IMG/VR virus record: IMGVR_UViG_3300009545_000055
Span: 1-24,954 of that record
Direction: 5' to 3' (one strand)
Length of the DNA: 24,954 bases
From: a virus
Below the pieces are notes generated by a model that saw only the letters and a program-made list of their open reading frames with translations, did not search any database and was not told the origin of the DNA. This document shows, one piece after another, positions 1,130 through 18,261 of the stretch (position 1 is the first letter of the stretch; each line of letters opens with the position of its first letter). The translations under genes were made by a program, and so were the position numbers.

Positions 1130-1182
1130 GTCGGCGAGTCGTTGCGTCCGCGTGTCATGCCAGATCAACAGGGGAGATGTTC

Positions 1183-1920
1183 ATGCCATCGCTGGAAAGG
1201 AATGCGCGCGCGTTGAGTAGGGGGATCGCGGCGCTACTATTGTGTGCAGCGGGGACCGCGAAAGCTGCACCCCCAACGATTGACGCAGTCGTACCCGCCC
1301 AGATCAAAAATCGACTTTATCTCGGCGATGCGGACGTTGGTGCGTTGGGGAACTCGCTCGAGCCAGTCGTCTGCTATTTCGGCATGCTCAAAGACGGAAA
1401 GCTTGAAGTGGCATCGATTATGCCAGACTCGTTCGGATCGGGTTCCGCGTTAGTGGGGACGAAGCTCGAGGACGGCAAGGCCGGCTACGACGCAGTCGTC
1501 ACCTCCACGAAGGACGTAAACGCCGGCATCCCGATCCTGAGCCTGACATTGGCCAACAACCAGAAGGCGGAGGTCTCGTTCACAGACACCGCGCGTGTTG
1601 AATGTGCCAAATCACCGAATATGGCAGATTGGGAGAAGCTGCCCGTCGCTGCTGCGGATCGGACATGGGTCTTCATTAACACCGCCACGGTCAGTGTGGT
1701 CAGATCCACCATCCTCACCGAAACGACGTCCGGAATTGCCGGCCTCATTCAGGCTTTCACCGTGGGAGCGAAGACGTACAATGCCCTGGATGGTTCGTCG
1801 TCGGTCCTCGCCGTATCGCTGTTTGTTAAAAAGGATCCGCGCAAGCTTGCGAACCTGCCTGCCGGGCTCCTGCAGGCTACTCGCAGTCAGCGATCCCTGA
1901 GCGACATGGCTAACCAATAG
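1183..1920 (+). CDS. Secreted/periplasmic hypothetical protein
   Basis: The start is placed at ATG 1183 because an AGGGGAG at 1170-1176 lies 6 nt before it; the in-frame ATG at 1177 is too close to that site. The 245-residue product has a typical Sec signal peptide: basic n-region (LERNARALSRG), hydrophobic core (IAALLLCAAG) and a likely cleavage after AKA. The mature part is beta-rich, with patches such as EVASIMPDSFG and PILSLTLANN. I recognise no domain. It is not a usual P2 structural gene and has its own candidate promoter. Its stop codon lies inside the last 11 bases of the convergent portal gene, so it is tightly packed against the late block. It is probably a moron that changes the host envelope or fitness; this is inference. 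Confidence 0.7.
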   Translation: MPSLERNARALSRGIAALLLCAAGTAKAAPPTIDAVVPAQIKNRLYLGDADVGALGNSLEPVVCYFGMLKDGKLEVASIMPDSFGSGSALVGTKLEDGKAGYDAVVTSTKDVNAGIPILSLTLANNQKAEVSFTDTARVECAKSPNMADWEKLPVAAADRTWVFINTATVSVVRSTILTETTSGIAGLIQAFTVGAKTYNALDGSSSVLAVSLFVKKDPRKLANLPAGLLQATRSQRSLSDMANQ

Positions 1921-2956: not shown

Positions 2957-4748
2957 AATTGATCCTCAGTCTGCTCTTGCGCGGGCGACCGTCGTCCGCG
3001 TCCAGGGGTTCGTTGTAGAGGGCGTGCATGATCGCCCAGGCGAGGTCGGCGTGGCCGATCGCCTCGCTGCGCTGGGCGACATAGGTGATCTGGCGGCCCG
3101 ACTTGGTGAGCTGCGGACGGATCGCCATGAAGCTCGCCGCCACGTCTGCCCAACCGCCGTCGAACTCGATGCGGCCCGAGGTGAAAACGTGCTTGGCCTT
3201 GTAGACCATCGCCGACTTCACCTGCAGGTTGTAGTCGATGCGCTGGGCGCGCGGGAAGAACTTGACCACGCACTGCCACACCGCCGCGCCGGCGCCGGTG
3301 GTGTCGATGCCGATATGCTGGACGTTGTACCGCTGGCAGAGCTTGCGGATTTCCTCGGCCTGCTCGGTGAAATCCTTCCCGCGCCACTGGAATTTCTCGA
3401 GCACACGGAACTTGCCCTTCGGCCCCTTTGGCGGCGCGACGACGACGCATGCCGCCTGGTCGCCATTGGCGCTCTCCTGCGGATCGTAGCCGATCCACAC
3501 CTCGCCCTCGCCGAACGGGCGCGGAAGATAGGAATTGAAATCGCGCCAGGCGTCGAACGCATCGACCATCGCGCGCCGCATCATCGACAGCGGGAACATG
3601 CTCACCGTGTCGTCGACGAAGTTGCACATGTAGAGGTTGTCGAAGACGTCGCCCGGCTTAGTGCGGCGCAGATGCGCGATATCGAACAGATCCGAGCCCG
3701 CCGCCTCGGCATCCTCGATGGTAACGATCTGCCGCCAGATCTCGTCCGGCCCCGGCATCCCGGCTTTCAGCGCGGCACGGCTGATGTCGATCTTTGCGCG
3801 CGCGCTCTTCGGCTGGCTGTCGGCCCACGTCTTGCCGGTCCATTTGGAGTAGGCTTCGTGCGTGATCGAGCTGGGCGTGGAGAAATAGGTCTCGCGATAG
3901 CGCTTCTGCGAGGCCATGCCGGAGGCGACGGCCTCGATCTGCTCGAAGCCGTGGACCCAGAAGCACTCGTCGAAATAGAAATTGCCGTGATAGCCCTGGG
4001 CGGTGCGATAATTGGTGCCGAGGAAATAGATGGTCGGCTGCTCGAGCTGCTTTCCGTCCTCGTCCTGCCCCCGGTCGATCGTGAGGTGCTCGCCCTTCAA
4101 CTGGACGCCGGTGACCGCATAGACCCACTCGACGATGTAGGTACGGAAGATGTTCGCCTGGTTGCGCGAGGCCGACAGGAAAATCTGGTTGCTGCCGGTG
4201 TCGAGCGCATCGATGAACGCCTCGCGCGCGAAATACCACGTAGCGCCGATCTGGCGGCTCTTGAGGATGAAGCGTGTCTTGTGGCTGAGCCGGGCCTCCC
4301 ACCAGACGAGCTGGAAATCGAAGATCGACGCGAAGAAGTCCTCGCGTAACGCCTCGATCTGCTCGGGCGTGAGATAATTGACCTTGGGCTTCTTCTTCGG
4401 CTCGCGGTTCCGATTGGCGACCTTCTCGTTGAGATCGCCCTCATGCCCGCCGGGCGCCTCGTAGCGGCGCACCCGTGCCGTGCGCTCGAGCTGGCGGCCG
4501 AGCAGATCGATTTCCTTGAAATCCCGCCCGCTCTTGTCCTCCTTCATGATCAGGAGCTGCAGGCGGGCATCCAGCGCCGATTCGATTCGCTCGAGCGGCG
4601 CGGTCGTGTCCCACGCATCGCGCTGTTTCCAGCTGCGGATGGTGTTGGCATTCGCGCCCGTCACTTGGGCGATCTGCTCGCAGTCGTAGCCAGCCCAATA
4701 GAGCTGCCGTGCCCGGCGCCGCACGTCGAAGGGGATAGGAACGGTCAT
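2736..4748 (-). CDS. P: Terminase large subunit, ATPase/nuclease (P2 gpP family), lacking its expected stop
   Basis: gpP is the motor ATPase that cuts at cos and pumps DNA into the prohead. Numbering from ATG 4748: an N-terminal helix-turn-helix (residues 8-45, GYDCEQIAQVTGANANTIRSW), a Walker A-like SRQIGATW at 164-171, a Walker B-like YFDE with D260/E261, and nuclease-domain acidic residues including D422 (IGYDPQ) and D482 (IGIDTT). The family-like end NEPLDADDGRPRKSRLRIN falls at residue 597. The frame then continues without a stop for 73 arginine-rich residues read out of frame through the portal gene, giving 670 residues in all. I chose ATG 4748 over ATG 4778 because AAGG lies 9 nt upstream and the late box lies at the standard distance. 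See findings for the lost stop. Confidence 0.93.
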   Translation of the reverse strand: MTVPIPFDVRRRARQLYWAGYDCEQIAQVTGANANTIRSWKQRDAWDTTAPLERIESALDARLQLLIMKEDKSGRDFKEIDLLGRQLERTARVRRYEAPGGHEGDLNEKVANRNREPKKKPKVNYLTPEQIEALREDFFASIFDFQLVWWEARLSHKTRFILKSRQIGATWYFAREAFIDALDTGSNQIFLSASRNQANIFRTYIVEWVYAVTGVQLKGEHLTIDRGQDEDGKQLEQPTIYFLGTNYRTAQGYHGNFYFDECFWVHGFEQIEAVASGMASQKRYRETYFSTPSSITHEAYSKWTGKTWADSQPKSARAKIDISRAALKAGMPGPDEIWRQIVTIEDAEAAGSDLFDIAHLRRTKPGDVFDNLYMCNFVDDTVSMFPLSMMRRAMVDAFDAWRDFNSYLPRPFGEGEVWIGYDPQESANGDQAACVVVAPPKGPKGKFRVLEKFQWRGKDFTEQAEEIRKLCQRYNVQHIGIDTTGAGAAVWQCVVKFFPRAQRIDYNLQVKSAMVYKAKHVFTSGRIEFDGGWADVAASFMAIRPQLTKSGRQITYVAQRSEAIGHADLAWAIMHALYNEPLDADDGRPRKSRLRINYGGDQRPASGGRRRRAGERTEEGRQHVQLRRSRARARPARHLRDARVRPQFPLVRASHAHGRAGARLPDRAAS

Positions 4749-4794: not shown

Positions 4795-4817
4795 GTTGTG
4801 GCGGCGGCGCTTACAAC
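4795..4817 (-). promoter_or_regulatory. Late-promoter activator box for the P-Q operon
   Basis: Read leftward, the sequence is GTTGTAAGCGCC-GCCGC-CACAAC. It differs only at the degenerate centre from the boxes before J and V, and its first base is 69 nt from ATG 4748. The ends (GTTGT...ACAAC) form an imperfect dyad with TGT and ACA separated by 13 nt. From memory, P2 late promoters carry TGT-N12-ACA centred near -55 and bound by Ogr/Delta zinc-finger activators. The equivalence is inferred from position and symmetry. Confidence 0.7.
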
Positions 4818-4860: not shown

Positions 4861-4885
4861 CTTGCAAGCGCGGCCGGGCCACAAA
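4861..4885 (+). promoter_or_regulatory. Late-promoter activator box (degenerate) for the O-S operon
   Basis: The sequence is CTTGCAAGCG-CGGCCGGGC-CACAAA. The left half matches TTG(T/C)AAGCG of the other boxes and starts exactly 70 nt upstream of ATG 4931, the same distance as the J and V boxes. The right half CACAA is 2 nt further away than in the other three. It is therefore weaker evidence, supported mainly by the fixed distance and the orientation toward O. Confidence 0.5.
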
Positions 4886-4930: not shown

Positions 4931-5797
4931 ATGCCGAAGACCAAGTCCTTCCGCGTCGCCGTCGAGGGCGACACCGTCGATGGTCGCAAGATCGAGCGTA
5001 GCTGGCTGACCGACATCGCCGCCACCTACAACCCGACCACCTACGGGGCGCGGGTGAACAAGGAGCATATCGTCGGCGTCACCGGGCAGGAGCCGTTCAA
5101 GGCCTATGGCGACGTGCTGAGCTGCTCGACCGAGGAGATCACGCTCGAGATCGGCGGCAAATCCCAGAAAAAGCTGGCGCTCAACGCCGAGGTCGAGGCG
5201 ACCGACGATCTCGTCCAGCTCGTCGCCGACAAGCAGAAGATCTACACCTCGATCGAGGTGGCGCCGAATTTCGCCAACACCGGCAAGGCCTATCTGATGG
5301 GCCTCGCCGTCACCGACACGCCTGCCTCGCTCGGCACCGAGGTGCTGAGCTTCGCCGTCAAGAACCCCGGCCTGCACCCCGGCATGCCACGCCCGAAGGC
5401 GCCGGAGAACGTCTTCTCGCTCGGCCTCGAGACCAGCTTCGCGCTCGTGGATGCGCCCGTCGTGCAGCCCGACAGCCAGACCGCCGGGCTCATCTCGGCC
5501 GCCAAGGAGTTCTTCGCCAGCTTCGCCAAGGCGCCGGAAAAGCCCGCTGACCCGCCCGTCCAGGCGCCGGCGAACGACAACGACGCGCGATTCGCCACGA
5601 TCGGTCAGGGCCTCACCAAGATGACGGAGGCGGTCGAAGCGCTCAGCACCCGCCTCGGCACGATCGCGACCGATGTCGCCGCGGTGAAGACCGGCCACGA
5701 GTCGCTCAAGGCCGACCTCGAGAAGAGGGCGCCGAACGGTTTCACCCCGCGCCCGCCGGCGTCGGGCGGGGACAACGTCATCACGACCGACTGCTGA
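4931..5797 (+). CDS. O: Capsid scaffolding protein with serine protease (P2 gpO family)
   Basis: gpO guides prohead assembly and processes the capsid, portal and itself. The 288-residue product shows the gpO arrangement: an N-terminal protease domain with D17 (TVDGRKI), H46 (NKEHIVG) and S107 (YTSIEVAP). These correspond to the Asp-His-Ser triad of P2 gpO, recalled as D19, H48 and S107. The C-terminal half is the scaffold: a linker rich in Pro/Ala and Lys, then a helical amphipathic segment (GQGLTKMTEAVEALSTRLG). An upstream in-frame ATG at 4760 was rejected because its extra 57 residues are arginine-rich noise crossing the promoter region. AGGAG lies about 11 nt before 4931. It is the first gene of the rightward late operon. 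Confidence 0.95.
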   Translation: MPKTKSFRVAVEGDTVDGRKIERSWLTDIAATYNPTTYGARVNKEHIVGVTGQEPFKAYGDVLSCSTEEITLEIGGKSQKKLALNAEVEATDDLVQLVADKQKIYTSIEVAPNFANTGKAYLMGLAVTDTPASLGTEVLSFAVKNPGLHPGMPRPKAPENVFSLGLETSFALVDAPVVQPDSQTAGLISAAKEFFASFAKAPEKPADPPVQAPANDNDARFATIGQGLTKMTEAVEALSTRLGTIATDVAAVKTGHESLKADLEKRAPNGFTPRPPASGGDNVITTDC

Positions 5798-5840: not shown

Positions 5841-6884
5841 ATGCGTAACGCCACCCGCAATCTCTTCAACGCCTACGTTTCGCAGATCGCGCTGCTCAGC
5901 GCCGTCGCGAGCGCCGCCACCTCCTTCACCGTCGATCCCGCCGTCGCCCAGAAGCTCGAAGAGCGCACGCAGGCCTCGAGCGAGTTCCTGACCCGCATCA
6001 ACTTCGTCACCGTCGTCCAGCAGGAAGGCGAGAAGGTCGGCATCGGCGTCGCCCAGCCGATCGCGGGCCGCACCGACACGTCGGGCGCCGGCGAGCGCAC
6101 CCCGACCGATCCGACGTCGATGGACAGCAGCCGCTACCGCTGCGAGCAGACCAACTTCGACACGGCGCTGCGCTACTCCACCCTCGATGCCTGGGCGCAT
6201 AAGCCCGAGTTCCAGACGATCGTTCGCGACGCGATCCTGAAGCGGCAGGGCCTCGACCGTATGCTGATCGGCTGGAACGGCACGTCCGTCGCCGCGACCA
6301 CCAACCGCGTTACCAACCCGCTGCTGCAGGACGTCAACAAGGGCTGGATCCAGCATACCCGCGAGGACGCTGTCGAGCGCATCATGAGCCACGGCTCGCT
6401 CGACAACGCCAGCATCTACATCGACGCCGAGGGCGCGCTCGCCGACGAGCCGACCGCCGATTACGTCAACCTTGACGCCCTCATCTTCGACGTCGTCGAG
6501 CTGCTCGACGAATGGAACCGCGATGACACCGAGCTGGTGGTGATCGTCGGCCGCGATCTCGTCCACGACAAGTACTTCAACATCGTCAACACCGCCGGCG
6601 ACGATGCCGAGAAGCAGATCGCCCGCGACGTCCTGCTCTCGACCAAGAAGCTGGGCGGCCTGCCCGCCGTCCGCGTGCCGGGCTTCCCGGCCGGCAAGCT
6701 CGCGGTCACCCGTCTCGACAACCTGTCGATCTACAACCAGGAGTCGTCGCGCCGCCGGGCGATCATCGACAATCCGAAGAAGGACCGCGTCGAGAATTTC
6801 GAGAGCGTGAACGAGGCCTATGTCGTCGAGGACTATGGCCTGATCGCGGTCGCCGAGAACATCGTCATGGGCAAGAAGGCCTGA
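5841..6884 (+). CDS. N: Major capsid protein (P2 gpN family)
   Basis: The 347-residue protein matches gpN of P2 (about 357 residues) in length and in position after O. It builds the T=7 icosahedral shell. The N-terminal part, ending near FTVDPAVAQKLEERTQASSEF, is the region removed by the O protease in P2. The segments EKVGIGVAQPIAGRTDT (near 60) and VENFESVNEAYVVEDYG (near 315) are typical of the family. GGAGA lies about 8 nt before the ATG. The gap to O is 43 nt and the gap to M is only 2 nt, so all three are co-transcribed. Confidence 0.97.
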   Translation: MRNATRNLFNAYVSQIALLSAVASAATSFTVDPAVAQKLEERTQASSEFLTRINFVTVVQQEGEKVGIGVAQPIAGRTDTSGAGERTPTDPTSMDSSRYRCEQTNFDTALRYSTLDAWAHKPEFQTIVRDAILKRQGLDRMLIGWNGTSVAATTNRVTNPLLQDVNKGWIQHTREDAVERIMSHGSLDNASIYIDAEGALADEPTADYVNLDALIFDVVELLDEWNRDDTELVVIVGRDLVHDKYFNIVNTAGDDAEKQIARDVLLSTKKLGGLPAVRVPGFPAGKLAVTRLDNLSIYNQESSRRRAIIDNPKKDRVENFESVNEAYVVEDYGLIAVAENIVMGKKA

Positions 6885-10124: not shown

Positions 10125-10615
10125 TGCTCAAGCCGCAATCTCTTGCCGCCGCCCTCGCCAACGCGGTGCCCGATCTGTCGACAGACCCGGCGCGCTTCCA
10201 GTGCCACGTCGAGCGCGGGCGGCTGATAGCGACCGCGACGCTCGGCAGCGGCTTCGAGTATCGATATCAGCTCACCCTCTTCCTGCTGGATTATGCCGGC
10301 CCGACCGACGCGATCTTCTGGCCCTTGCTCGGCTGGATGCAGGTCAATCAGCCGGAGCAGTTCCTGACGCCCGATCTCCGCGAGCAGGCGATCGTCTTCG
10401 ACGTCGATATCCTCGACGGCAATCGGTCGAACATCGAGATCCAGCTGCAGCTGACCGAGTCGGTGATCGTTGCGGCGGGAGAGAATGGCAGCACCGTTCT
10501 CACCCATATCGACGAACCCACGCTCGAGAGCCTGCTCGAGCCGATCGATGGCGTGCCCGCCGGACGCACGCTCGGCTCGATCATTGTAGGCGGCGACACG
10601 ATCCTCGGCGGATGA
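10124..10615 (+). CDS. R: Tail completion protein (P2 gpR family)
   Basis: gpR is a terminator of the tail tube/sheath that joins tail to head. The 163-residue protein starts MLKPQSLAAALANAVPDL. It contains the family pattern YRYQLTLFLLDYAGPTDAIFWPLLGWMQVNQPEQF around residues 45-80 and QLQLTESVIV near 108. The start overlaps the Rz1 stop by one base and the stop overlaps the S start, so R and S are coupled. Confidence 0.92.
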   Translation: MLKPQSLAAALANAVPDLSTDPARFQCHVERGRLIATATLGSGFEYRYQLTLFLLDYAGPTDAIFWPLLGWMQVNQPEQFLTPDLREQAIVFDVDILDGNRSNIEIQLQLTESVIVAAGENGSTVLTHIDEPTLESLLEPIDGVPAGRTLGSIIVGGDTILGG

Positions 10616-11100
10616 GCGACGATCTCGACCAGCTGACCAAGCTCGCCGAGGCGATGATCGCGGGCATGTCGGCCGAGCAGCGCCGGCGCGCCACCCGCGC
10701 GATCGGCGCCGAGCTGCGGCGCTCACAGGCCGCTCGCATCGCGGCGCAGGTCAATCCGGACGGGACGCCTTTCGAGCCTCGCAAGCCTCGCCTGCGCAGC
10801 CACCACAAGGTCGCCGATCGGGCAAAGGCCCGGCGCACCAGCGTTGCGCGCAAGGCGATGTTCGCCAAGCTCCGGACCAACCGCTTCCTTCGCGCCAAGA
10901 CAGACGCCGACACCGTCGAAGTGGGCTTCACGGGACGGGCCGCCCAGATCGCTCGCGTCCATCAGGAAGGGCTGCGCGACAAGGTCGATCCGAAGCACAG
11001 CGGCGTCGAGACCACTTATCCGGTGCGTAGACTCCTTGGCATCGCAGGCGACGATCGAGACATGATTTGCGAGCGGCTGATGGCGATGCTCGCCTCTTAG
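10612..11100 (+). CDS. S: Tail completion protein (P2 gpS family)
   Basis: The 162-residue protein begins MSDDLDQLTKLAEAMIAGMS and carries the basic gpS signature NPDGTPFEPRKPR (about 45-58). Near the C-terminus it has the VHQEGLRDKVDP and YPVRRLLGIAGDD motifs. gpS works with gpR in completing the tail. It is the last gene of the O-S transcript. Its TAG stop shares bases with the stop of the opposite-strand membrane gene ending at 11097, so the two genes converge with no spacer. Confidence 0.92.
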   Translation: MSDDLDQLTKLAEAMIAGMSAEQRRRATRAIGAELRRSQAARIAAQVNPDGTPFEPRKPRLRSHHKVADRAKARRTSVARKAMFAKLRTNRFLRAKTDADTVEVGFTGRAAQIARVHQEGLRDKVDPKHSGVETTYPVRRLLGIAGDDRDMICERLMAMLAS

Positions 11101-11699
11101 CCGAGCGTCGGCAATGTCCTGATGCGCGTGTAGTCGTCTATTAGCTCGTCGATACTGGTGAGAGCTGGACCACAGAAAGAGGCCGCGCCCAACGATATCG
11201 TGTTCGCGTCCGATAAGCTGGTGTTACGAATATCATATTCGAGGCGGCCAGCGGTATCGGCCCCAATTGCCACAGCATCACTCATGGCCAAACGCAATGG
11301 AAAATCGGTGAGATTGGAGTTTTCCAGCGCTTTGCTTGTCAACTCACACGATTTACGTAAACTTCCTATCAATCGACTGGAATTGTTTATTGTCAGCCCT
11401 TGCGACGCCGCTACGCATTCTCTGATTGCGCGGACATGGCGTAGAGCCTCCCGGATCGCCTGACTGCGTTGTGTACGTGCAAGTTCGGCGGCATCACGCT
11501 TCGCCGCCTGACGCTCATGTCGAAACATCAAGATAGCCAAGCTGACGGAGATCATCCCCCCAATCATTGCTCCGGCGACATTGGCTTCAAAGTCGCCGGC
11601 CAACTTCAATGAAACACTGACCCGACCTAACCCCCAAAACAGACCTGAAGCTGCCATTGCTCCGATGCACACCCATCCTGCCCGCTCCTGCCACTTCAT
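11097..11699 (-). CDS. Hypothetical membrane protein, probable moron
   Basis: The start is set at ATG 11699, which has AGGGGGA 5 nt upstream; the in-frame ATG at 11729 lies before this site. The 200-residue product has two membrane helices (about 8-26 and 40-60: GWVCIGAMAASGLFWGLG and VAGAMIGGMISVSLAILMF). A basic cytoplasmic helical region follows (RHERQAAKRDAAELARTQRSQ), then a soluble domain of unknown fold. Base composition is visibly more AT-rich than the structural genes and it is on the opposite strand, both signs of independent acquisition. P2 has no counterpart here. A role in lysogenic conversion or superinfection exclusion is possible but not shown. Confidence 0.7.
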   Translation of the reverse strand: MKWQERAGWVCIGAMAASGLFWGLGRVSVSLKLAGDFEANVAGAMIGGMISVSLAILMFRHERQAAKRDAAELARTQRSQAIREALRHVRAIRECVAASQGLTINNSSRLIGSLRKSCELTSKALENSNLTDFPLRLAMSDAVAIGADTAGRLEYDIRNTSLSDANTISLGAASFCGPALTSIDELIDDYTRIRTLPTLG

Positions 11700-11724
11700 C
11701 GTGTCCCCCTGAAATATGCGCCGT

Positions 11725-11754
11725 ATCATCTGGAGAGCCCGTACCAGCCTTCAA
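11725..11754 (-). promoter_or_regulatory. Weak candidate promoter for the minus-strand membrane gene
   Basis: Read on the minus strand, TTGAAG (11754-11749) and GATGAT (11730-11725) are separated by 18 nt and lie about 25 nt before the AGGGGGA/ATG of the gene starting at 11699. The match is modest. A private promoter would let this gene be expressed in the prophage state independently of the late operons. Confidence 0.25.
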
Positions 11755-11772
11755 AGGTTGCGCCAGAGGGTC

Positions 11773-11795
11773 GTTGTAAGCGCCGATATCACAAC
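11773..11795 (+). promoter_or_regulatory. Late-promoter activator box for the J operon
   Basis: The sequence is GTTGTAAGCGCC-GATAT-CACAAC. Its first base is exactly 70 nt upstream of ATG 11843. The left 12 and right 6 bases are identical to the box before P and differ by one base from the box before V. No good sigma70 -35/-10 pair is visible between box and gene, as expected for an activator-dependent promoter. Confidence 0.72.
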
Positions 11796-11842
11796 GCCAA
11801 CACATGGCGCGCCGCGCATTGCGCGCGCGACATGCCCGCGCC

Positions 11843-12760
11843 ATGGCCGCCACCCTCTTCTCCAGCTCCACGCCGATCGATCTGTCGCGTCTTCCCGCGC
11901 CGACGTTCGTCGAGCAGAAGACCTATGATCAGATCTACGCTGAGCGGCTCGCGGATCACGTGGCGAGATGCCAGGCCGCCGGCGTAGCATTCGACGCCAC
12001 CATCAAGAGCGATCCGGCGATCAAGCTGATCGAGGACGCTGCCTATCGCGAGCTGTTGCTGCGCCAGGCATTCCAGGATGGCTGCGCCCAGCTGCTCGTC
12101 GCGTTCGCGAGAGGCCCGATCCTCGATCATCTTGGTGCCCTCGTCGGCGTTTCGCGCCTGACGGTAACGCCAGCCGATCCGGACACGGGCGCGGCGGCTG
12201 TCCTCGAGGAGGATGACGATTTCCGCAAGCGAATCGTCCTTGCCCCCGAAAGCTTTTCCGTTGCCGGCCCGGAGCTGGCCTATGTTTATTGGGCCAAGAC
12301 GGCTTCTGCGAGCGTCGCCGATGCCAGCTTCACGAGCCCCGATCCGGGGCAAGCTGTCATCAGCGTACTTTCGATCGACGGCGACGGCGCGGCGCCGGAC
12401 GATCTGCTCGATGCGGTGCGCGCCGTTGTCGGCTCCGATGGCATCCGGCCGCAGACGGACGAGGTTATCGTGCGGTCGGCCGAGATCATCGCCTTTTCCA
12501 TCGCCGCCCGTGTCTACACCTATGCGGGGCCGGATTACGCTATCGTCCTCGCTGCCGGGCGGACCAAGCTCGACGCCTACCTCGCATCCTCCCGCCAGCT
12601 CGGCCGTTCGATTACGCTTTCGGGCCTCGAGGCCGCGCTTACCGTCGAGGGTGTCCAGCGGGTGGAGCTGGATGGGCCCCTTGCTCATGTTACCTGCGAC
12701 CTGACGCAGGCGGCGCACTGCACCGACATCCAGATCGCCCATGGCGGCTATGCCAGCTGA
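11843..12760 (+). CDS. J: Baseplate assembly protein (P2 gpJ family)
   Basis: gpJ forms the baseplate wedge periphery. The 305-residue protein starts with the family pattern TPIDLSRLPAP, followed by VEQKTYDQIYAERLADHV. It has RQAFQDGCAQLLVAFARG near residue 75, the LDHLGALVGVSRL segment, and the VLSIDGDGAAPDDLLDAVRAVV region near 175. I prefer ATG 11843 to ATG 11804 because the extra 13 residues are arginine/alanine noise and because 11843 gives the conserved box-to-start distance. No Shine-Dalgarno sequence is visible. The stop lies inside the I coding region. Confidence 0.93.
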   Translation: MAATLFSSSTPIDLSRLPAPTFVEQKTYDQIYAERLADHVARCQAAGVAFDATIKSDPAIKLIEDAAYRELLLRQAFQDGCAQLLVAFARGPILDHLGALVGVSRLTVTPADPDTGAAAVLEEDDDFRKRIVLAPESFSVAGPELAYVYWAKTASASVADASFTSPDPGQAVISVLSIDGDGAAPDDLLDAVRAVVGSDGIRPQTDEVIVRSAEIIAFSIAARVYTYAGPDYAIVLAAGRTKLDAYLASSRQLGRSITLSGLEAALTVEGVQRVELDGPLAHVTCDLTQAAHCTDIQIAHGGYAS

Positions 12761-13400
12761 CGCCCCTGTCCTGCTGCCGCCGAACGCTTCGCCTCTCGAG
12801 CGCGTGCTCGAGCAGGTGATGGCCGGCGCGCTGTCGATCGAAGCGCCGATCGACACGCTGATCGATCCGCAGACGATTTCCGAGGATGCTTTGCCCTTCC
12901 TCGGCTGGGGCCTTTCGGTTGACCGCTGGAGCCCGGATTGGTCCATCCAGCAGAAGCGCGACGCGGTCGCCTCGGCCATTGCCTTGCAGCGCGTAAAGGG
13001 AACGCCAGCCTCGGTGAAGGCGGTGCTCGCAACCTACGATCCGCTGCTCACCTATGTCGAATGGTGGGAACAGACGCCGCGCGGGAGGCCCTTCACCTTT
13101 CAGGTCGAGCTGCCGCTCGACGGCACGGGATCGCCACGCAATAGCGCGGCCTTCGTCGAGGCGATCATCGCCGACATCATGAAGGTGAAGCGCGGCACCG
13201 CCCACCTCGCGATGCTGCAGACGCTCGCGACCGCTGGGCAGATCGGCGTGATCGCCGCTGCCCGTACCTGCCTGTCTCTCCGCTTTGACGGAATTGCCCA
13301 GCCCGACACCTCGGAGGCGTGGGAGAGCTTCCTCCAGACGGAGGATGGCGAACCCTTTCAGGAGGAGGACGGCGATTTCCTGCAGGAGGAAGCAGCATGA
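12741..13400 (+). CDS. I: Tail protein I (P2 gpI family)
   Basis: gpI is a baseplate protein that links wedge and tail fibre. The 219-residue protein has the family core LLPPNASPLERVLEQ, then LPFLGWGLSVDRWSPDW near residue 52 and KGTPASVKAVLA near 85. It overlaps J by 20 nt; a second ATG at 12750 is an equally possible start. Its stop overlaps the H start (ATGA). The C-terminus is unusually acidic with a small internal repetition (FLQTEDGEPFQEEDGDFLQEE), giving pI-altering negative charge at the fibre interface. Confidence 0.92.
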   Translation: MAAMPADAPVLLPPNASPLERVLEQVMAGALSIEAPIDTLIDPQTISEDALPFLGWGLSVDRWSPDWSIQQKRDAVASAIALQRVKGTPASVKAVLATYDPLLTYVEWWEQTPRGRPFTFQVELPLDGTGSPRNSAAFVEAIIADIMKVKRGTAHLAMLQTLATAGQIGVIAAARTCLSLRFDGIAQPDTSEAWESFLQTEDGEPFQEEDGDFLQEEAA

Positions 13401-14521
13401 CGGTCCCCGCGATCGGCCTCACCATCACGACGGCGGGCCTCACCCGCTTCACTCAGGCTCAAGAGGGCGAACCGGTCGATCTGACCGTCTCGACCGTCGC
13501 CTATGGCGGGCAACCGTTCGTCGTTGCCCCGACGCTCACCGCCGTGCCGGGCGAGATCAAACGGATCGCCACCATCGCTGGCGAGGTGCTCGACGACAGC
13601 ATCGTGCATCTGATCATCCGCGACGATACTGCCGACACCTATCAGGTCTACGGTCTGGGGCTTTACCTTGCCGACGGCACGCTGTTCGCCGTGTTCGGGC
13701 AGGAAACCCCCATGCTCGAGAAATCGTCGCAAACGGCCCTTATCGCCGCGCTCGATCTCAAGTTCCCCGCCGTCGATGTGAGTTCGATCAGCTTCGGCGA
13801 CAGCAGCTTCGTGAACCCTCCAGCGAGCGAGGACACCAAGGGTATCGCCGCCATCGCCTCCCAGCCGATGGTGGATGCAGGGACCGATGACGAGACGATC
13901 GTCACGCCTCTGAAACTGGCGGTGCGCCTGACGGCGGCTTTGAGCGGCCTCGTCGCCGGTATCTTCGCGAGCGCGGCTGAGACGATCGCGGGGGCGATCA
14001 GCAACAAGGCCGTGCATCCGGCCGGTCTGAAGGCCGCCCTGGACGATCGGCTCGGTGCCGGCGCGCCGACCGGTTTCATCAAGACGCTGCTCGCGGCTGC
14101 CACGGCGGTGAATGGCCGCGCCACCCTCGGCCTGGGCAACGTCTCGACCCTCAATGCAGCGAGCGCGGCCGAGCTGCTCGCCGCAACGGCCGGCGACAAG
14201 CTGGTGACCCCCGGGAATTTCGGCGCGCTCGGTCATAGGCTCGACGCCACGACCGGCGAGTACATCTACCCTGGCGGCTTCCGCATGAAATGGCTCCACG
14301 CCTCGGTTGGAGGCGATCAGGAAACGACGATCGATTTCGCGACGCCGTTTCCCAATGCCTGCGTCTTTGCCGTTTGCACCGGCGGAAATGCTTCGAACAC
14401 TCAGCAGGATAACGGCCCCTTCGTGCGGGTGTCCTTCGCTGTGGATCACGTGAAAATCTGGAACTCGATCGATACCTCGCAGGGTCTGATCGATGTCGCC
14501 ATCGCCGCCTGGGGCTTCTGA
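13397..14521 (+). CDS. H: Tail fibre protein (P2 gpH-like)
   Basis: The 374-residue protein starts with a tail-collar fibre domain of the gpH type (residues 1 to about 140, with ITTAGLTRFTQAQEGE and YGLGLYLADGTLFAVFGQ). A linker repeat typical of phage fibres follows (TKGIAAIASQPMVDAGTDDETIVTP, about 155-180). The C-terminal domain from about residue 287 (YPGGFRMKW, ATPFPNACVF, final AAWGF) resembles the gp53-like fibre tip. It is much shorter than P2 gpH (about 669 residues), lacking most of the shaft. No gpG-type fibre chaperone follows; two other fibre-like genes do. The start overlaps the gpI stop. Confidence 0.88.
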   Translation: MTVPAIGLTITTAGLTRFTQAQEGEPVDLTVSTVAYGGQPFVVAPTLTAVPGEIKRIATIAGEVLDDSIVHLIIRDDTADTYQVYGLGLYLADGTLFAVFGQETPMLEKSSQTALIAALDLKFPAVDVSSISFGDSSFVNPPASEDTKGIAAIASQPMVDAGTDDETIVTPLKLAVRLTAALSGLVAGIFASAAETIAGAISNKAVHPAGLKAALDDRLGAGAPTGFIKTLLAAATAVNGRATLGLGNVSTLNAASAAELLAATAGDKLVTPGNFGALGHRLDATTGEYIYPGGFRMKWLHASVGGDQETTIDFATPFPNACVFAVCTGGNASNTQQDNGPFVRVSFAVDHVKIWNSIDTSQGLIDVAIAAWGF

Positions 14522-14523
14522 TC

Positions 14524-16176
14524 ATGGCGAAAGTCTCTCTTCTTCCTTCGGCAACCGACATCGCCGACACGGATGCCCTCGCCCTCTCCACCCAAGTGGC
14601 GGGCGTGCCCGCCAGCCGCAAGCTGAGCTGGTCACTCCTCGTCTCGAAGATGATGGGGCCGGTTCAGGCGGCGATCGGCGCGAAGATGGCCAGCCTGACC
14701 ACGCTGGGCACCGGTGGCGGTTTCGTCATCGGCTGGCGGAAGGGCGCCATGTTCAAGGGCCACACGTGGTTCAAGAACGACGACGCCTGCACGATCGTGA
14801 ACCCCTATCTCGACACGATCAACAGCACGGCGGTGCTGGCCGCCGCGCGTGCGCCGAAGCACTTCATGACCGGGCCGCGCGAGCACCTGTTCGCGGTCGG
14901 CTATCAGGCTTCCGTCAAGACGCTCAAGGGTGTGTTCGCCGTGCGGCGCACCGGGCAGATCGACAACGCCTATTTCTCGGGCCTCTACAACGAGGTGCTC
15001 GGGTCGCAGGAAACGGCGGCGAGGCAACAGCTGATGCAGCGCAAGAACGCGCTCGGCTTCGGGCAATTTGGCCTGCGGAAGGCGATGCGCGCAGCGTTGG
15101 GCGGAGGTGTCGTCAATATCGTGCTGGCTGGCGACAGCCTGACCACCAACCTCGTCGCGCTCACCCTGCGCCGCCTGTTCGGGTTCAGGGCCGGCTTCGG
15201 CGGCATGGGGATGTTGCCCTTCGCCGCGCTGGGGCTGGGCTATGACGGCACCAGCGGCGCCATGTCGGTCGATGCCGGCAACTGGACGTTCTGGACCTAC
15301 AATCCTTCCTCGGCGCCCAACCCGCCAGCCGGATTCGATGGCTGGCAGAATTGGTGGATCAAGTCCGGCGCCTGGGCGAAGGCCGGAAACGGCCTCTCGC
15401 GGATCTACGTCAACGCGCCATTCAACACGCTGCCGGAATATGCGTTCGATACCGTTCGCGTTTTCTATTACGCGACGGGAAGCGACTGTGCGTTCCGGCT
15501 GCGGGCCAACGGCGCGACGGCCGACGCCTGGACGGCCAAGACGGCACCCGCATCCACGGTCGCGGCACCCAGCCTCCAATATGTCGACATCACGGGATTC
15601 GGCGCCGCCACGGGCCGATACTCGCTGGAGATCGAGGAGCAGATCGTTGGCGCGGGCGTCCTGAACATCTGCGGCCTCAACTTCATGAATTTGAAGGGCG
15701 GCGTCCGTTTCCACCGGCAATCGTTGGGTGGTTACAAGTCTGGCGACATCGCAGGCCAGTCGGCGGTGTCGAAGGCGTTCTTCTACGCCAATATCGGCGT
15801 GGACATGCTGCATTTGCATCTCGCGCATAACGACAGCGGCACCGCCGATGCGACCTATCGCGCGAACATGCAGACGATCATCACGGACTGGCGCGCGGTG
15901 AACGCGAATTGCTCGCTTGCGCTGACCCAGTGGTTTTCGGCCGCGGCTCTTAAACGCGAGCAGGCGATCAAGGATCTTGCCGTCGCCAATGACGGCACCG
16001 TGTTCGATGTTCGCGACATTATTCCGAGCCGCGATTGGGCGAATCTGCGGGGCCTTTTGCTTGCGCCGGCGACGGCCGACGACCCCCATCTTATCGACGA
16101 TGGGTACGAATATTTCGGCCACAGCCTCGCGCTGCACCTCGGCCTCTACTCCTTTTACTACCCGCTCCAGCCCTAA
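14524..16176 (+). CDS. Tail-associated SGNH/GDSL-type hydrolase (fibre esterase)
   Basis: The N-terminus (VSLLPSATDIADTDALALS) is the small adaptor motif common in phage tail-tip proteins. From about residue 197 an SGNH hydrolase is visible: block I NIVLAGDSLTTN with S205 as nucleophile, a glycine patch GFGGMGM near 225, block III LHLAHND with N436, and block V DDPH with D519 and H522. Between S205 and N436 sits a long insert (about 240-395) rich in aromatic and beta residues (NWTFWTYN, CAFRLRANG, LEIEEQIVG), like a carbohydrate-binding module. The 550-residue protein probably removes acetyl or similar esters from capsule or O-antigen during attachment. It begins 2 nt after H. Substrate is unknown. 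Confidence 0.82.
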   Translation: MAKVSLLPSATDIADTDALALSTQVAGVPASRKLSWSLLVSKMMGPVQAAIGAKMASLTTLGTGGGFVIGWRKGAMFKGHTWFKNDDACTIVNPYLDTINSTAVLAAARAPKHFMTGPREHLFAVGYQASVKTLKGVFAVRRTGQIDNAYFSGLYNEVLGSQETAARQQLMQRKNALGFGQFGLRKAMRAALGGGVVNIVLAGDSLTTNLVALTLRRLFGFRAGFGGMGMLPFAALGLGYDGTSGAMSVDAGNWTFWTYNPSSAPNPPAGFDGWQNWWIKSGAWAKAGNGLSRIYVNAPFNTLPEYAFDTVRVFYYATGSDCAFRLRANGATADAWTAKTAPASTVAAPSLQYVDITGFGAATGRYSLEIEEQIVGAGVLNICGLNFMNLKGGVRFHRQSLGGYKSGDIAGQSAVSKAFFYANIGVDMLHLHLAHNDSGTADATYRANMQTIITDWRAVNANCSLALTQWFSAAALKREQAIKDLAVANDGTVFDVRDIIPSRDWANLRGLLLAPATADDPHLIDDGYEYFGHSLALHLGLYSFYYPLQP

Positions 16177-17023: not shown

Positions 17024-18202
17024 GTGTCCGACAAGGGGGACGATAAACTTTCGCGTCTGAGCGATCATTTTCATAAGATACGCATAACGACCATCCTCCT
17101 GTCGACGTCCCTACTGTTATGCTGCATTTCAAAAGGAACAGGAGCCTTATCTCTGTTCTTGAGTTCTTATACGCCAGACGCGGAAAGCTACAATTTTATC
17201 CTAGTTATGCTTGGATTAGCTGTTCTTGTATCCGCTTCTCACATGGCCCTTATATGGTTTGATGAGCGACGAAAGCTTGAATTATTCTACGTGGACGCTC
17301 AAGCGGTGATTACGGCCTCTGGGCAGATGATAGAAATCGCGAACGCAACCTCGTCTCAACTCTTGTCCGCATGTTCAACGAATAGCGAGATCTTTAAGCG
17401 AATAGGGTCGACTGACACGACGGCGCTGCGGCGCGTCATGGAAGAACATCTTGGTGAAGAAGCGCAACGTGTAGCAAAAACGCGGATAATTCAGGATATT
17501 CGGGGTTTGGAGCATTTCTCATTTCACTTTCCAGAAATGCACAACGATGCAGAGGCAGTCGTGAATAAAATCATGGCTCTCTCTTCCATCACGGATAATG
17601 AGAGGAGGGATTTTGTTTCCGATCAACTTCGGCATATAATAGAAAGTTCATGGGCTAATAAGCTTGGCAATATCAGAATGGAACGCGAATCATGGATTCG
17701 CATTGAAGAAATGGCGAAAAACGCCGCCGAGCGAGTCGCGATGGAAATGCAAATGCTCGCCCGAGACATACCAGAGCGAACTGCCCCGGCATTCAGCGAC
17801 ATCATCATCGCAGAGAAAAACCAAACAACCAGCATTAAAAATTTCATGGAGTCTGCAAATACTAATCTTGAAACTGTCAAAAACACAATACCGAGTGTCG
17901 TATCTAGTTTGAAACAACTACGCAGGGCGCTGAACAGATCATCGCGTAGCGTAAAAGCTATAATCTGGATATACGATCTAACGATCCCCCTGATCGCTGC
18001 TTTAATCGCCGAATTGCACCTTGTTGGATTCCTGTTTTTCCCAGTTATCCCCTCCGCGCCGCGCGTATTCAATCTGATCCAGCGCAACGTGTCTGCGCAC
18101 GGTTGGGTATCCTCCATTGCCGCTTTGGTTCTGATTTCCGCTACCGCAATGGTCTGGGTTCGACAGATGAGACTAAGCGCAACCTCGCGCCATCCGGCTT
18201 GA
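17024..18202 (+). CDS. Hypothetical four-helix membrane protein, probable moron
   Basis: The 392-residue product starts at GTG 17024, with AGGGGG about 10 nt upstream. It has two N-terminal membrane helices (about 22-46 and 58-80: TTILLSTSLLLCC and FILVMLGLAVLVSASHMALIWF). A charged helical domain of about 200 residues follows, containing the motif LEHFSFHFPEMHND and possible coiled coils (ESANTNLETVKNTIPSVVSSLKQLRRALNR split by turns). Two C-terminal helices (IYDLTIPLIAALIAELHLVGFLFF and VSSIAALVLISATAMVWV) complete it. The region is clearly AT-richer and uses codons unlike its neighbours, suggesting recent transfer. I recognise no family. The topology is compatible with a superinfection-exclusion or defence membrane effector. 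Confidence 0.75.
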   Translation: MSDKGDDKLSRLSDHFHKIRITTILLSTSLLLCCISKGTGALSLFLSSYTPDAESYNFILVMLGLAVLVSASHMALIWFDERRKLELFYVDAQAVITASGQMIEIANATSSQLLSACSTNSEIFKRIGSTDTTALRRVMEEHLGEEAQRVAKTRIIQDIRGLEHFSFHFPEMHNDAEAVVNKIMALSSITDNERRDFVSDQLRHIIESSWANKLGNIRMERESWIRIEEMAKNAAERVAMEMQMLARDIPERTAPAFSDIIIAEKNQTTSIKNFMESANTNLETVKNTIPSVVSSLKQLRRALNRSSRSVKAIIWIYDLTIPLIAALIAELHLVGFLFFPVIPSAPRVFNLIQRNVSAHGWVSSIAALVLISATAMVWVRQMRLSATSRHPA

Positions 18203-18238: not shown

Positions 18239-18261
18239 GTTGTAAGCGGCCCTGCCACAAC
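18239..18261 (+). promoter_or_regulatory. Late-promoter activator box for the V-D operon
   Basis: The sequence is GTTGTAAGCGGC-CCTGC-CACAAC. Its first base is exactly 70 nt upstream of ATG 18309, as for J. A small hairpin (GCGAG, CTAT, CTCGC) lies just before it at 18224-18237. The box lies in the 106-nt gap after the membrane moron, marking a fresh transcription start for the spike-to-D block. Confidence 0.72.

Follow-up and report, generated by a model that had tools for sequence, protein, structure and literature searches.

A passage in PMC6823313 describes three moron regions in P2-like phages, one of which lies between S and V, and one in PMC3091744 names orf30 as one of three regions where genes not present in P2 are very common. 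In P2 itself, orf30 (NC_001895, 9439-10224) is a minus-strand gene, annotated as nonessential, found after S and ahead of the activator site for the late operon that follows. It is AT-rich (GC 0.34 vs 0.54 for S), and hydrophobic stretches are visible by eye in its product, which matches phrog_2407 at 2.9e-148. In P2-like coliphages, anti-phage cargo is found at two other sites, and the parts of PMC9122126 and PMC9519451 that treat these defence hotspots place them at cos/portal and fun, not at orf30. According to a passage of PMC7067206, lysogens often express accessory prophage loci at high levels. For phage Smp131, part of the text of PMC3931495 describes four late promoters (PP', PO', PJ' and PV'), with the JIHG genes ahead of the V group.

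The window analysed here, the full 24,954-base stretch of a virus record, was read as the late half of a P2-like phage, with R, S, J, I, V and W assigned by Pfam. The arrangement of its operons, in which P, O, J and V each have a late promoter and JIHG precedes the V group, is already known from Smp131. The gene that follows the orf30 slot is J, in contrast to V in P2. Between S (Phage_tail_S; PF05069, E 3e-31) and J (Baseplate_J; PF04865, E 3.1e-26) lies an open reading frame that we refer to as MORON1.

An antisense open reading frame between S and J

The features of the S-to-J gap are as follows.

10612 to 11100, plus strand: gene S (tail completion), with a stop codon that overlaps that of MORON1
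11097 to 11699, minus strand: MORON1, an orphan open reading frame of 200 aa with two predicted N-terminal hydrophobic helices and a predicted helical domain
11700 to 11729, minus strand: possible 10-codon extension of MORON1 from ATG 11729, giving 210 aa
11704 to 11710, minus strand: Shine-Dalgarno-like AGGGGGA, 5 bases before ATG 11699, with an ACG-type spacer as read from the leader
11843 to 12760, plus strand: gene J, baseplate; start chosen by us, the listed start being 11804

For J, we preferred ATG 11843 over 11804 because of the starts of its homologues and the promoter spacing described below. The first-pass annotation had described an AT-richer gene on the opposite strand, tail to tail with S and sharing stop bases with it, and this description is accurate: two stop-codon bases are common to S (TAG, 11098-11100) and MORON1 (TAA, 11099-11097), and the gap has a GC content of 0.55 compared with 0.65 for the whole window. 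MORON1 thus resembles P2 orf30 in strand, in composition and in its place after S and ahead of the next late-activator site. The two differ in that P2 has a putative terminator between S and orf30, whereas MORON1 shares the stop bases of S. They are also unrelated in sequence (E 4.9), and MORON1 falls outside phrog_2407. The earlier claim that MORON1 lacks P2 homology is therefore correct for sequence, but it overlooks the antisense, AT-rich gene that P2 carries in the same slot.

There are reasons to ask whether the open reading frame is a gene at all. One of at least 200 aa appeared in 25 of 2000 dinucleotide shuffles, and one of at least 190 aa in 71 of 4000 shuffles of 11051-11850. GC content is flat across the codon positions of MORON1 (0.54/0.51/0.57), codon usage favours its frame only narrowly (-4.534 vs -4.593 for the next frame), and we found no diverged copy on which selection could be tested. 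These observations would fit a gap made of non-coding or regulatory DNA. Against this, none of the 4000 shuffles combined an open reading frame of at least 190 aa with a hydropathy peak of at least 2.0 (the real peak is 2.14), both cut-offs having been set only after the open reading frame had been seen. In addition, the Shine-Dalgarno-like AGGGGGA precedes ATG 11699, and antisense genes occupy the same slot in P2 and in a related prophage locus, L130. A search for tRNA and Rfam matches returned none. Because no shuffle paired such length with such hydrophobicity, MORON1 is probably a real gene, and we consider a non-coding gap very unlikely.

Predicted topology of MORON1

MORON1 had been described as a two-helix membrane protein with a helical domain. 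The second helix is the better supported of the two, with the strongest hydropathy peak of the protein (2.14, residues 41-59). The first (residues 7-25) makes a weaker claim to be a membrane helix because the N-terminal peak reaches just 1.37. Basic residues are found at the N-terminus and directly after helix 2. Under the positive-inside rule, basic residues lie on the cytoplasmic side of a membrane. From hydropathy and charge, MORON1 would be placed in the inner membrane, and the position of its basic residues suggests that both termini are cytoplasmic. A single-sequence AlphaFold2 model is all-helical, with helices at 3-27, a long helix at 34-101 and three further helices. The mean pLDDT of this model is 63.6, so the helical bundle it depicts is only a suggestion.

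The sole PHROG to match MORON1 is PHROG 1350, annotated "holin", which covers residues 43-90 only (E 0.0012). MORON1 is antisense, lies outside the lysis cassette and has a long C-terminal part. PHROGs identified a separate holin in the window (phrog_2359, E 7.7e-18) as well as an endolysin. Since the phage has a holin of its own, we read the PHROG 1350 match as a membrane helix common to both.

Homologues of MORON1

The first-pass annotation had called for a homologue search, which gave no family. The only relative found among viral contigs was a near-identical contig with 1 mismatch in 6908 aligned bases (position 6356, outside MORON1). Searches of phages and plasmids (tblastn, E 0.01) gave no match, all Pfam and NCBIfam matches were below cut-off, and PADLOC recognised no described defence or exclusion family. 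Among solved structures the best match had an E of 0.31. Fold searches with the low-confidence model returned nothing at E ≤ 0.001, the best viral match being A0A516M1U8 (E 0.038). Nothing on MORON1, or on S/J cargo in sphingomonad phages, was found among the papers listed by our searches of open-licence PubMed Central. On these searches, MORON1 is a new orphan. The slot that it occupies is the known orf30 locus, which the first-pass annotation did not name.

Partial matches in bacterial genomes were rejected. A Paraburkholderia match in genome contigs (34 aa, 47%; E 1e-5 among candidate stretches, E 0.007 against the whole genome) was taken as chance because the scan itself demanded one peptide and the surroundings looked like ordinary chromosome. 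Partial matches in 9 of 396 genomes from the order of G354 (E 0.0016-0.0098), three of them with in-frame stops, were likewise dropped as chance. None of the 397 genomes from the family of G664 matched MORON1; that search had no positive control, so its empty result shows nothing.

Outside the slot, orf1 of the Haemophilus phage HP1 (P51700) is similar in layout: its product, of 205 aa, shows by eye two hydrophobic segments near the N-terminus and a rest that looks soluble, as in MORON1. The fold match is weak (E 1.2) and there is no sequence similarity (E 2.8). Unlike MORON1, HP1 orf1 sits between int and cI.

The S-to-J gap as a cargo site in related prophages

Among 396 genomes of one order, 29 carried a J relative, at 30 loci in all, and these loci were surveyed. 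Sphingomonadales is the probable order, since Zymomonas is the source of the closest named record that shares the gene order. Four loci with no S upstream of J (L131, L141, L142 and L145) were dropped. In the remaining 26 prophage loci, the gap between S and J is shorter than 300 bp in 9, 0.4-3.2 kb in 13 and longer than 5 kb in 4, where the long open reading frames may be structural. Three more records with the same gene order (L028, L031 and L032) have gaps of 54-73 bp. The gap has a lower GC content than its own stretch in 12 of the 13 loci with a 0.4-3.2 kb gap, and in 9 of these 13 the first open reading frame, by a crude longest-frame call, is antisense; one of the 13 (L137) carries what we read as a transposase. 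Among 18 loci with the usual P2 gene order, the S-to-V gap exceeds 800 bp in seven, and the first open reading frame is antisense in four of these.

One counterpart of MORON1 is the antisense gene of L130 (7158-7904), which has the same slot and strand and also shares its stop with S. Like MORON1 it is AT-rich (GC 0.45), with an N-terminal hydrophobic segment and a Shine-Dalgarno-like sequence (AGGAG). The two are unrelated in sequence, however, and the L130 protein has one hydrophobic segment by our cut-off and a different soluble part.

Of 21 cargo proteins listed, ten were scanned. Four of them pass Pfam cut-offs (an SRAP protein, a LuxR-type HTH protein, a DUF2806 protein and an OB-fold protein) and the other six of the ten have no Pfam match. 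PADLOC gave weak hits for the HTH protein only (best E 5.8e-4) among the same ten. The SRAP (SOS response associated peptidase) gene lies antisense after S in L143 (6720-7400, minus strand; E 2.1e-26). By eye, we noted PEP-CTERM-like ends on S-adjacent cargo of two loci with gaps longer than 5 kb, L132 (1547-2110) and L135 (1915-2460), and perhaps on that of L127 (6804-7571). An insertion of about 3 kb with a large open reading frame occupies an unusual place in L028, between V and W (12800-15920).

MORON1 thus has the features of a moron: it sits after S and ahead of the next late operon, it is absent or replaced in relatives, and its composition is foreign. Because the slot is near-empty or filled with unrelated genes in relatives, and because it matches the orf30 moron region of P2-like phages, the original proposal that MORON1 is cargo is well supported, and we regard cargo at the orf30 locus as highly probable.

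Late-activator sites and the transcription of MORON1

A J promoter had been asserted, and not shown, in the first-pass annotation; we have now located an activator-like site in front of J. The window contains exactly three copies of the motif TTGT-N13-ACAA, one each in front of P, J and V, compared with 0.02 expected from shuffles, and a degenerate version lies before O.

4796 to 4816, minus strand: activator-like site of P; the ATG at 4748, 47 nt away, is our choice of start
4862 to 4884, plus strand: degenerate site TTGC-N15-ACAA upstream of O; the ATG at 4931, 46 nt away, is our choice of start
11774 to 11794, plus strand: activator-like site for J, TTGT-N13-ACAA, which ends 48 nt upstream of ATG 11843
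18240 to 18260, plus strand: activator-like site of V, 48 nt from ATG 18309

Three of the four starts behind this 46-48 nt spacing (P, O and J) were chosen by us and are not the listed open reading frame starts. We also tried the P2 consensus TGT-N12-ACA, the form quoted for Smp131 in a passage of PMC3931495. It gave three matches in the window, with 1.66 expected and none at an operon start; the N13 spacing fits instead. The annotated pV activator site of P2 contains TTGT-N11-ACAA, which by hand count ends 47 nt before V.

Across the related loci and the window, a site was found before 17 of 34 J genes and 17 of 33 V genes, and where it is present, the start codon lies 44-49 nt from it in 15 of 17 J and 16 of 17 V cases. 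The other 17 J and 16 V genes gave none, so the site is not a general feature of this set. A looser scan for palindromic TGT-N13-ACA gave 72 sites, of which 47 were near an operon start; its palindrome filter misses the sites of the window itself, which are symmetrical at their ends only. In L032 and L117, which are without cargo, the activator site overlaps the S stop. Sites thus end 44-49 nt before start codons both in the window (4748, 11843 and 18309) and in related loci, and the annotated transcription start of P2 V is the first base of V. This spacing, together with the P2 V transcript that starts at the start codon, suggests that late mRNAs in this phage group are leaderless or nearly so.

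MORON1 lies at an operon boundary, after S and before the J activator site, with 673 nt from S to the site. In a different reading, the J site would also drive MORON1, divergently and as a late gene, from a start near ATG 11729 (210 aa), and the product would act in lysis or assembly. The J site is symmetrical at its ends, ATG 11729 is 44 nt away, within the 44-49 nt seen for J and V of relatives, and the "holin" match to PHROG 1350 would fit such a role. Several observations argue against it: (i) each of the four sites holds one of the window's four copies of the half-site TTGYAAGCG, which always points towards the site's own gene; (ii) P and O, though divergent, have separate sites; (iii) we saw no Shine-Dalgarno-like sequence upstream of ATG 11729; and (iv) the starts of other antisense cargo are scattered at 27, 113, 344, 390, 391, 427 and 622 nt from the site, small open reading frames that overlap the site and more distant ones of the loci with gaps longer than 5 kb being left out of these distances. 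The phage also already has the holin and endolysin noted above. Given the site orientation, the separate P and O sites, the lack of a Shine-Dalgarno-like sequence at 11729 and the scattered cargo distances, late co-expression of MORON1 is disfavoured, and we consider the late-gene reading unlikely.

A possible role in lysogens

The reading we prefer is that MORON1 is an orf30-locus moron that is expressed in lysogens and excludes other phages; we assign this reading as a whole a probability of roughly 0.4. MORON1 would have entered just past the last gene of the O-to-S operon and ahead of the activator site that serves J. It would have its own promoter upstream of ATG 11699 and be expressed in the lysogen with the late operons switched off; a consensus promoter scan found no minus-strand site in front of MORON1. 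Expression in lysogens is, in our judgement, likely. During lytic growth, read-through from S would run antisense to MORON1. The product would most likely protect the lysogen against other phages at the level of the membrane, either by blocking DNA entry or as a membrane-active effector.

Phage exclusion comes first among our guesses because anti-phage genes are abundant at other P2 cargo sites, on the evidence of the hotspot passages in PMC9122126 and PMC9519451. Against it count the empty PADLOC result for MORON1, the lack of a convincing PADLOC hit among the ten scanned cargo proteins, and the location of those hotspots away from orf30. The abundance of anti-phage genes at other P2 sites is the only counterpoint to another reading, in which MORON1 is a moron whose benefit is other than exclusion (stress, envelope or signalling) or is near-neutral cargo. 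None of the orf30-locus cargo identified in relatives (SRAP, LuxR-type HTH, DUF2806 and OB-fold) is a clear defence gene, and the PEP-CTERM-like ends read by eye in L132 and L135 also fit such a role. We hold this to be a real possibility, at somewhat less than even odds. The broader proposal, that the S/J (orf30) gap is a third phage-defence cargo hotspot and that MORON1 founds a family of small membrane exclusion proteins, appears doubtful.

Taken singly, MORON1 is of modest interest. In these probably sphingomonad hosts, a different group from those of the coliphages, the orf30 slot is often occupied by short genes of high AT content, many of which belong to no known family. Looking between S and the late-activator palindrome offers a sharp way to find such cargo, and the genes recovered there form a test set for lysogen-benefit or defence genes.

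Two other open reading frames of the window were noted. The first (17024-18202, plus strand; 392 aa), just before the V activator site, is a second AT-rich cargo candidate, with a GC content of about 0.45-0.50 and no relatives in viral contigs. Its protein has hydrophobic N- and C-terminal segments and a weak PADLOC match to Cas13-ApeA (residues 146-227, E 0.0033), and its structure model was too poor for use (pLDDT 43.4). The second (1177-1920, plus strand; 247 aa) gave no Pfam, NCBIfam or PADLOC family and weak PHROG hits only; it has a signal-peptide-like start and is convergent with the portal gene.
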